Both the position numbers and the translations under genes were made by a program. A stretch of DNA of 64,000 nucleotides from Thermomonas sp. (GTDB lineage: Bacteria; Pseudomonadota; Gammaproteobacteria; Xanthomonadales; Xanthomonadaceae). Positions 3,489 to 4,733 of the stretch are shown here, piece after piece (the stretch's first letter is position 1; each line of letters begins with the position of its first letter). Location of the stretch: NCBI RefSeq assembly GCF_023953935.1, contig NZ_JAMLIW010000004.1, forward strand, positions 186,001-250,000, read 5' to 3'. The notes under the pieces are model-generated. The model saw nothing but the letters and a program-made list of their open reading frames with translations. It made no database searches and was not told the DNA's origin.

Positions 3489-3959
3489 ATGAAAATTCGC
3501 ATGAAACACACGTTGATCTGGGGTCTGGCCCTGCTGCTTTCCGCCTTTGCCGCCATTGCGGCCGAAGGCGGCATCCGCGTCGAATCGGCCTGGGCGCGCG
3601 CCACCCCGCCGGTGGCGCCGGTGGCGGCGGCTTATCTCGTGGTGATCAACGATGGCGACACGCCCGATCGCCTGTTGCGCATCGACAGTGGCATTGCCCG
3701 GCGCATCGAGATGCACCGCACCGCGAATGAGAACGGGGTGATGCGGATGCGGCCGATCGAAGGCGGTGCCGTCATCCCCGCGCGCGGGCGGCTGGAGTTC
3801 GCGCCGGGTGGCAATCACCTGATGTTGATCGGCCCGGTGCGCCCGCTGGTCGCCGGTGAAACCTTCGAAGCGACGCTGGTGTTCGAACGTGCGGGCCCGC
3901 GCAAGGTGCGTTTCGAGGTGCGCGGCATGGATGGCAATGCACCTATGCACATGCATTGA
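3489..3959 (+). CDS. copper chaperone PCu(A)C
   Basis: A 156-residue periplasmic Cu(I) chaperone. The signal peptide is residues 1-24 (ends AIAA). The mature part begins with VESAWARATPP, the usual opening of the family, and carries the His/Met copper site: EMHR near residue 74, MRMRP about ten residues on, then NHLMLIG. This follows the H(M)x10Mx21HxM pattern. A further His/Met tail (MHMH) ends the protein. In the family it hands copper to cytochrome oxidase assembly proteins. It sits 57 bases after the copper receptor, probably in the same transcript. A second in-frame ATG at 3501 could be the start instead. The first nested palindrome of the next intergenic region begins 23 bases after its stop and may act as a terminator. 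Confidence 0.93.
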   Translation: MKIRMKHTLIWGLALLLSAFAAIAAEGGIRVESAWARATPPVAPVAAAYLVVINDGDTPDRLLRIDSGIARRIEMHRTANENGVMRMRPIEGGAVIPARGRLEFAPGGNHLMLIGPVRPLVAGETFEATLVFERAGPRKVRFEVRGMDGNAPMHMH

Positions 3960-3982
3960 GCGGTGTGGGCTGTCTTGTCGCA

Positions 3983-4080
3983 GGCCGAGGCGGATGCCCC
4001 TGGTCGCGAATGTCCTCCGACATCGGCTTGTGGCCGATGTCTCCCCCTTTATTTCGCGACCAAGGGCATCCGGCTCGGCC
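3983..4080 (-). repeat. nested-palindrome element, copy 1
   Basis: A 98-base element with three layers. The outer arms 3983-4010 and 4053-4080 are complementary over 28 bases with two mismatches. Inside, read on the minus strand, is a 46-base core (4054 down to 4009) that opens AAATAAAGGGGGAG and ends CGGAGGACATT. In its centre is an 8-base stem (ACATCGGC with GCCGATGT) around a 5-base loop. A second copy with the same core but different outer arms and different stem bases lies at 4124-4229 in the opposite orientation. The family name is unknown to me. It could be a small hairpin mobile element, a structured RNA, or a terminator for the copper genes. Confidence 0.8.
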
Positions 4081-4123
4081 TTTGGAAGTACTCAGGTAGA
4101 GCGGGGATCAACTGAAAGCCAGA

Positions 4124-4229
4124 GCCCGGTGTGGCTCGCAGGCCTTCGGAGCAAAATAAAGGAGGAGGCATTCGCCGCCAGCGAATGCCGGGGGACATTT
4201 GCTCCGAAGGCCTGCGGGCCACGCCGGGC
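4124..4229 (+). repeat. nested-palindrome element, copy 2
   Basis: Outer arms 4124-4155 and 4198-4229 pair over 32 bases with two mismatches. The 46-base core 4154-4199 opens AAATAAAGGAGGAG and closes CGGGGGACATT, with inner stem GCATTCGC / GCGAATGC around 5 bases. Aligned without gaps to the core of copy 1, ten positions differ. Six of these are the two sides of three stem pairs (core positions 15/35, 19/31 and 20/30), which change together so that pairing is kept. The outer arms are unrelated in sequence between the copies. It lies upstream of the blaI promoter. Confidence 0.8.
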
Positions 4230-4309
4230 GTCCGACGCCGGCAGATCGCTGGTCCAGCGGCGGTCAGTCATTCCGGAAGCAGGATCCGGACCGGAACGCC
4301 CCAGCATGC

Positions 4310-4358
4310 TTGACAAGACAAATTACATCTGTAATCTGGAAAAAAATTACGGGTGTAA
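4310..4358 (+). promoter_or_regulatory. blaI promoter with two BlaI-type operators
   Basis: The -35 box TTGACA is at 4310-4315 and the -10 box TAATCT at 4332-4337 (spacing 16). A perfect palindrome ATTACA-TC-TGTAAT (4322-4335) overlaps the spacer and -10, and a second dyad TTAC-GGGT-GTAA (4347-4358) ends three bases before the blaI ATG. TACA/TGTA half-sites are the known recognition pattern of BlaI/MecI/CopY repressors, so autorepression of the blaI-M56-lipoprotein operon is inferred. The leader would be only about 18 bases, without a clear ribosome site. Confidence 0.75.
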
Positions 4359-4361
4359 ACG

Positions 4362-4733
4362 ATGCAGATCAGCGAAGCCGAATCGGTGGTGATGGACGTG
4401 CTCTGGCAGCGTCATCCGCTGGGCGCGGATGAGGTGGTCGGCGCGCTCGCCAGCCGGCAGGATTGGCAGGAAGCAACCATCAAGACCCTGCTCAATCGCC
4501 TGCTGAACAAAGGCGCGATCAGCGCTGCCAAGGACGGCCGACGCTACCTGTACTCGCCCTTGCTCGAACGCGAGGACTGGGTGCAGGAAGAGAGCCGTGG
4601 CTTGCTCGATCGCCTGTTCGATGGTCGCGTCGCGCCACTGGTCGCGCATTTTTCGAAGCATCGCAAGCTCAGCCGCAAGGACATTGCCGAACTGCGCAAA
4701 TTGATCGAGGAGATCGACGATGGACAGTCATGA
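4362..4733 (+). CDS. BlaI/MecI/CopY family transcriptional repressor
   Basis: A 123-residue winged-helix repressor of the family that controls beta-lactamase and cell-wall-stress operons and is inactivated by a membrane M56 protease. The N-terminal part (MQISEAESVVMDVLW, then the recognition-helix region around WQEATIKTLLNRLLNKG) is typical, and the C-terminal helices (SRKDIAELRKLIEEI) are the dimerisation region. Length fits the family. Two palindromes of TACA/TGTA type sit in its own promoter. Its stop overlaps the next gene, the M56 protease, by 14 bases, so the two are translated together as in blaR1-blaI systems. No beta-lactamase gene is in the window, so the target may be only this operon or a distant gene. 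Confidence 0.92.
   Translation: MQISEAESVVMDVLWQRHPLGADEVVGALASRQDWQEATIKTLLNRLLNKGAISAAKDGRRYLYSPLLEREDWVQEESRGLLDRLFDGRVAPLVAHFSKHRKLSRKDIAELRKLIEEIDDGQS

Follow-up and report, generated by a model that had tools for sequence, protein, structure and literature searches.

Twin hairpins between two genes

The stretch of Thermomonas sp. DNA analysed here, which we refer to as the window, is 64 kb long and holds one copy of an apparently undescribed family of dispersed bacterial repeats. This copy is located in the gap that extends from a PCu(A)C copper chaperone gene to a gene encoding a BlaI-type repressor, and it consists of two hairpins, each of which contains a 46-base core with an inner stem-loop, nested within self-complementary outer arms (Table 1). 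The cores can be aligned without gaps and differ at ten positions. Six of these ten differences correspond to three compensated base pairs, 15/35, 19/31 and 20/30, which read A-T/G-C, C-G/T-A and G-C/C-G, respectively. The two cores, their ten differences and the compensated pairs had been reported in a first-pass annotation, and that observation matches the recomputed sequence to the base. Moreover, two of the other four differing positions, 10 and 39, also form a linked pair throughout the family.

Table 1. Positions of the parts of the element and of its neighbouring genes in the window.
Feature	Position	Strand	Description
PCu(A)C copper chaperone, upstream neighbour	3489..3959	+	Pfam PF04314; context, outside the element
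Hairpin 1 (minus strand carries the G-rich form)	3982..4081	-	outer arms 3982-4010 / 4053-4081, 29 nt, 2 mismatches
Hairpin 1 core	4009..4054	-	AAATAAAGGGGGAG, inner stem-loop, CGGAGGACATT; G/A type
Inter-hairpin spacer	4082..4123	.	42 nt in the window copy
Hairpin 2 (plus strand carries the G-rich form)	4124..4229	+	outer arms 4124-4155 / 4198-4229, 32 nt, 2 mismatches
Hairpin 2 core	4154..4199	+	AAATAAAGGAGGAG, inner stem-loop, CGGGGGACATT; A/G type
BlaI-type repressor (Penicillinase_R), downstream neighbour	4362..4733	+	Pfam PF03965; context; its orthologues serve for the empty-site comparison

The complete 64 kb were scanned for 28-bp inverted repeats with two mismatches or fewer and a loop of 30-60 nt, a setting that misses arms in which the two outermost bases are both mismatched. 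The two hairpins alone qualified, giving seven overlapping hits. The core pattern is matched twice in the window, versus 0.00 matches expected, and whole-stretch folding resulted in z-scores of -13.5 for DNA and -11.1 for RNA, with each hairpin folding locally. The two hairpins are not due to chance, because they are the sole qualifying inverted repeats and because of these core matches and folding z-scores.

The first-pass annotation considered the layout hard to explain by a plain terminator. In agreement with this, no intrinsic terminator (a G+C hairpin followed by a run of Ts) was detected between positions 3901 and 4400, where 0.5 are expected in shuffled sequences; nor does this region contain a promoter-like site. 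Screening of the window against Rfam did not result in matches above the gathering threshold, and all 12 hits of an E-value search with positions 3901-4361 remained below the gathering score, ten of them being microRNA precursors. In addition, text searches of a largely open-access literature found no description of the repeat in the titles and abstracts retrieved. The earlier remark that no named family has this layout therefore stands with respect to Rfam and these titles and abstracts.

A dispersed family of inverted pairs

The 2.59 Mb genome from which the window derives contains 26 matches to a pattern composed of the two boxes of the core, 10 of them forward and 16 reverse, whereas the reversed control pattern gave three matches. 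Inspection identified 21 of these 26 as true copies, mostly with a box-to-box length of 39 nt and with self-complementary flanks, and five (L024, L026, L029, L034 and L038) as non-copies. Four of the 21 copies, which have other core lengths (L019, L021, L032 and L033), were excluded from the alignment, and the 17 aligned copies were used to build a covariance model. Such a search had been proposed at first pass, and it resulted in matches in 36 of the 198 genomes of the window's taxonomic family, belonging to 7 of its 54 genera, when at most 24 candidates were scored per genome. Copy number in this screen ranges from 1 upward; at least 24 copies are present in genome G185, and deeper scoring gave 35 hits in G133 and 38 in G169. 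A class-wide draw with few genomes sampled per family yielded the element in three of 369 genomes, each of which belongs to the same family as the window. When GTDB genomes were scanned, at least 119 stretches with the element were detected, and the 80 matches listed belong mainly to Betaproteobacteria (Rhodoferax, Hydrogenophaga, Variovorax, Rubrivivax and others) and Xanthomonadaceae (Luteimonas, Thermomonas, Stenotrophomonas and others). Thus, further copies with stem covariation do exist in related genomes.

No blastn match to the element was obtained in plasmids or phages. Two viral contigs (L238 and L239) each carry a core, that of L239 being located less than 100 bases from the contig end. 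Stenotrophomonas-like copies, with arms resembling those of L193 and L224, are also present in L161 and L178, which come from records titled Bacillus subtilis SK7B5; this record is probably mislabelled or contaminated.

The organization of the element was studied in 175 distinct copies taken from the 119 GTDB stretches obtained above and the two viral contigs. The divergent (-/+) orientation was found for 51 of the 55 adjacent core pairs within 200 nt, and the core-to-core gap in pairs clusters near 116 nt, so that the two inverted units at regular spacing that define a REPIN or BIME are present. As a consequence of the divergent pairing, there is one G-rich hairpin per DNA strand. With at most 3 mismatches of 18 allowed, an opposite-orientation partner was detected 5' of 104 of 152 cores, compared with 8, 6 and 5 of 152 at three control positions, and about a third of the cores (48 of 152) are without a partner. 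Judged by eye, the two hairpins of a pair usually differ in kind in G065, G123, G133 and G169.

The element has a size of roughly 250-320 bp. The orthologues of G183 and G208 have inter-hairpin spacers that exceed that of the window copy by 25 nt. Within a composite spacer of G028 (L293:1480-1570), 7-base units of the GGCACAA type are repeated in a short tandem array, and a GGATATGGCCAATGGCCGCATCC palindrome is also present.

Conserved pairing and variable arms

In the 17-copy alignment, 94.3% of the cells are paired, versus 74.3% when shuffled and at most 41% when slid, and two-sided changes are present at 18 pairs. The 175 copies were chosen via their boxes, and they consequently test the arms and stems and not the boxes. 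Outer-arm pairs 8-21 are formed in 89-98% of them and comprise all four Watson-Crick types, versus at most 73% when slid by one column. Closer to the core, arm pairs 0, 3 and 4 form in 86-100% and pair 6 in 77% of the copies; in the fixed register used, pairs 1, 2, 5 and 7 form in just 33-51%. Inner-stem pairs form in 76-100%. The variable positions of the boxes are linked as well, with A/G in 145 copies, G/A in 22, A/A in 8 and G/G in none, counts that ignore descent. These results demonstrate that the constraint on the outer arms and the inner stem concerns pairing more than sequence, and the structural constraint suggested at first pass is upheld by the aligned copies, the arm pairs and the linked box positions alike.

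The copies have a purine-rich internal loop in common, in which AAGGRGGAG is located opposite CGGRGGACA. The foot of the arms occurs in two forms, either Watson-Crick paired or with TGA/CGA on the right and mostly tandem G.A mismatches. All copies with a TGA/CGA foot have a G at the linked left position (81/81), and those with a Watson-Crick foot have an A (57 copies) or a G (16 copies) at this position. Such a linked arm foot suggests a folded single strand.

Changes in the arms were scored in 22 comparisons between orthologues, some of them at the same locus; L295/L296 and L297/L298, presumed orthologues that could not be aligned, and L303/L304 and one L243 hairpin, which did not pass the filter, were left out. 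We counted 41 single changes that keep a wobble pair, 23 single changes that break the pair and 7 double changes. The commonest change is therefore a single step preserving a wobble pair, which fits the earlier proposal that the arms evolve freely. At L301/L302, tandem copies changed jointly between two close species, both sides of the inner stem included, which suggests exchange between neighbouring copies.

The other origin that had been proposed for the arms, namely the host DNA, is not supported by the comparisons and was rejected for the window copy: arms of different copies are homologous, and the window arms are missing from gaps without the element. The 11-mers of the four window arms match five times in 15 unoccupied upstream regions of 1.5 kb each. 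One window arm shares no 11-mer even with the occupied orthologues, which makes the 11-mer test weak on its own, and the homology between arms of different copies is the stronger point against a host origin. The arms look element-borne rather than host DNA. The arms had also been described as unrelated between copies. This is correct for the two hairpins of the window copy, but each of them has diverged homologues in other copies; for example, a relationship can still be recognised between the arms of G123 and those of the window hairpins. The copies in G065 have near-constant arms, which suggests recent amplification.

Insertion sites, known repeats and mobilisation

The genomic placement of 89 units was analysed on the basis of heuristic gene calls. 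Ten of the 89 are located inside a heuristic ORF, and 23 are too distant from a called gene to be scored. The 53 scored units are present in 19 convergent, 29 tandem and 5 divergent gene gaps, compared with 33, 78 and 33, respectively, for 144 other gaps of 100-600 nt. Placement is biased to the 3' ends of genes. No recurrent neighbour gene was found within 3 kb of the copies, the largest ORF cluster comprising five loci.

Following another check put forward at first pass, we compared empty and occupied sites. Close BlaI orthologues were found at 18 loci in 25 genomes of the genus, after exclusion of four weak BlaI matches (24-28% identity, L278-L281). At 14 of these BlaI-type loci the PCu(A)C gene is located upstream; three of the 14 gaps are occupied (402-438 nt) and 11 are empty (76-169 nt). 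A different gene is located upstream at the remaining four of the 15 unoccupied loci, which were excluded from this count. Genome G028 is occupied and its close relative G162 is empty at two sites, where the gaps are 426 versus 116 nt and 602 versus 23 nt. At the second of these (site B), the element of G028 is bordered on both sides by a 13-base direct repeat, and this repeat could be a target duplication or a deletion scar. Since a copy is also present in this gap in G123, a more distant relative, G162 may represent a deletion. The outer arm at site B of G028 overlaps sequence shared with the empty allele, which may be a deletion scar or GC-rich chance. No exact target duplication was proved at the compared occupied and empty sites; mobility of the element is likely, though not proved.

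We searched for a cognate RAYT/Y1 gene flanked by the same repeat, and none was found: 89 fetched Y1-transposase stretches, at least four of which are re-fetches, contain no strict core, where copy density alone would lead one to expect about 0.4-1.5. Four loose core matches in these stretches were judged to be chance. The search covered all 36 Y1 matches in element-bearing genomes of the family, which come from 26 of the 36 such genomes, and part of the matches listed for 61 genomes of the genus of G195 (Stenotrophomonas-like by DNA match). Genomes G169 and G185 gave no Y1 match despite their many copies, and a profile built from 23 Y1 seeds detected a single Y1 ORF in the remaining loci, located at a distance of 4.7 kb from a core. 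In 37 of 49 Y1 stretches of the Stenotrophomonas genus, the gene is surrounded by one or more inverted 14-mer pairs, some perhaps due to chance, from which we conclude that the scan is able to detect a cognate repeat. These 14-mers are of other kinds than the element and include known REP and TIR-like motifs (REP sequences as given in PMC2817692). The motifs found around the fetched Y1 genes are different (GGGGTCAGATCCC, AAAGGGGACGGA and GGTGTCAGGGACAATT), and none of these genes has the element core. Inverted repeats of the GGGGTCAGATCCCT type are present around the Y1 genes of L327, L329, L331-L335, L339, L340, L343, L345, L352 and L354. The single Y1_Tnp match in the window's own genome (L039, C9) is flanked by GGTGTCAGGGACAATT motifs, which are TIRYT-like and unrelated to the element, and, by eye, IS3-like transposase ORFs adjoin it.

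By its layout, the element belongs to the general type formed by REP/BIME/REPIN and TIR repeats, an assignment that, like the inverted-pair unit in other copies, goes beyond the first-pass annotation. As described in PMC2817692 and PMC6006769 (see also PMC3116915), the REP, BIME and REPIN sequences that go with RAYT (TnpA-REP) are dispersed intergenic repeats with inverted pairs, in which a short tag lies 5' of an imperfect hairpin and structure is kept while sequence varies; the element shares all these features. However, the rule given for the REP tag is GT[AG]G at the hairpin foot (PMC6006769), whereas the element has GGAG/GGGG instead of GTAG/GTGG. In addition, its nested hairpins are about 100 nt long, compared with the 21-65 nt described for REPs, it has long variable outer arms and a purine loop, and no strict core was found in the 89 fetched Y1 stretches. 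GGAG precedes the inner stem in the 17 aligned own-genome copies, the boxes of which read AAGGRGGAG, with one AAGGCGGAG; this is not an independent test for the family, the copies having been found by that box, and the window copies themselves read GGAG. GTAG/GTGG at the hairpin foot is absent from the element, which we therefore did not classify as a classical REP.

The TIR repeats of TIRYT transposases (TIRtrons) are described as carrying GGGGWSAS, some being self-complementary and present in dimers, and one TIR family occurs in Stenotrophomonas maltophilia (PMC3733652). This motif resembles the right box GGGGGACA of the element, but the Y1-gene motifs found here differ from the element core, a comparison made with TIRs by their described motif alone. 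The right box of the element, GGGGGACAT, is one letter off GGGGWSAS, and no strict core was found in the 89 fetched Y1 stretches. The same source describes CGTC-tagged palindromic repeats as orphans that are not associated with a transposase gene (PMC3733652); the element resembles these as an orphan palindromic repeat but has a different tag, and the description given there includes no nested arms. The REPIN-like look of the element follows from its inverted pair, the hairpin on each strand, the short tag, the 3'-biased intergenic placement and the patchy spread. Integron attC sites also combine conserved boxes with variable self-complementary stems and are recognised as folded single strands; their boxes differ, however, and they are present in cassette arrays, whereas the copies of the element are scattered.

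The family is a real, widespread and structure-conserved one of REPIN-like layout. The reading we favour, to which we give an even chance, is that of a non-autonomous REPIN/BIME-like repeat on which an enzyme acts in trans, recognising it in the form of folded single-stranded DNA; the mobility and the mobilising enzyme are what we infer. In a single-stranded phase of the DNA, on the lagging strand or in repair, one hairpin per strand would fold, and the internal loop would be recognised by the enzyme, most likely a single-strand endonuclease/transposase working like RAYT/TnpA-REP. This enzyme would have copied the paired unit to new intergenic sites, where inserted copies would persist as neutral or mildly useful 3'-flanking DNA. 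More tentatively, the repeats might constitute an orphan class of single-strand-DNA mobile elements of Beta- and Gammaproteobacteria, characterized by twin nested hairpins, a recognition signal that resides in the folded purine loop and not in the sequence of a stem, and an enzyme in trans other than Y1/RAYT. The purine loop would in that case possibly form a two-layer G-quadruplex of four GG pairs with a linked A.G/G.A/C-G contact.

It is unlikely that the family is a structured RNA or 3'-UTR element whose transcribed hairpin protects mRNA ends or binds a protein, and which was spread by a mobile carrier. The predominance of wobble-keeping over breaking and double changes in the arms is expected if G-U pairs are tolerated, the tandem G.A foot is as compatible with RNA as with DNA, and the bias to gene 3' ends agrees with such a role; a transcript through a divergent pair, however, contains one G-form and one C-rich complement, and the lack of terminator- or promoter-like sites and of Rfam matches reported above for the window argues against an RNA function. 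We consider it rather improbable that the hairpins are chromosomal binding sites for gyrase, an IHF-like or another DNA-folding protein, kept for a host function. The shared loop boxes with free arms and the mostly intergenic placement would suit such sites, and REPs are reported to bind gyrase and IHF (PMC6006769; for gyrase also PMC3733652), but the patchy occurrence in the family and class-wide screens and the copy numbers starting at one speak against them. Similarly improbable is that the two hairpins are the cargo of a MITE of a conventional DDE transposon: G065 has a larger repeat, of about 450 bp, with borders that resemble inverted repeats and begin GGTTCTTC, but the homology in six units of G123 ends at the hairpin arms, as judged by eye, without ends of the G065 type, and many genera have the core in combination with different arms. 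Finally, neutral upkeep, in which the arms would stay complementary without selection owing to template-switch correction of quasi-palindromes, is very improbable: some two-sided changes are seen in close orthologues, for instance in both tandem copies of L301/L302, but this process should also erase the purine-rich mismatched loop that the copies share, and the changes between orthologues are mostly single and not clustered doubles.

The repeat family represents a natural experiment: across many genera, base pairs have been exchanged in all four ways, and what has been kept is the shape and not the sequence. It provides well over a hundred variants from which the requirements of a protein that recognises single strands may be read, and it points to the involvement of an enzyme or binding protein. 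With this family, the REP/BIME concept comes to include long nested hairpins that lack a GTAG tag.
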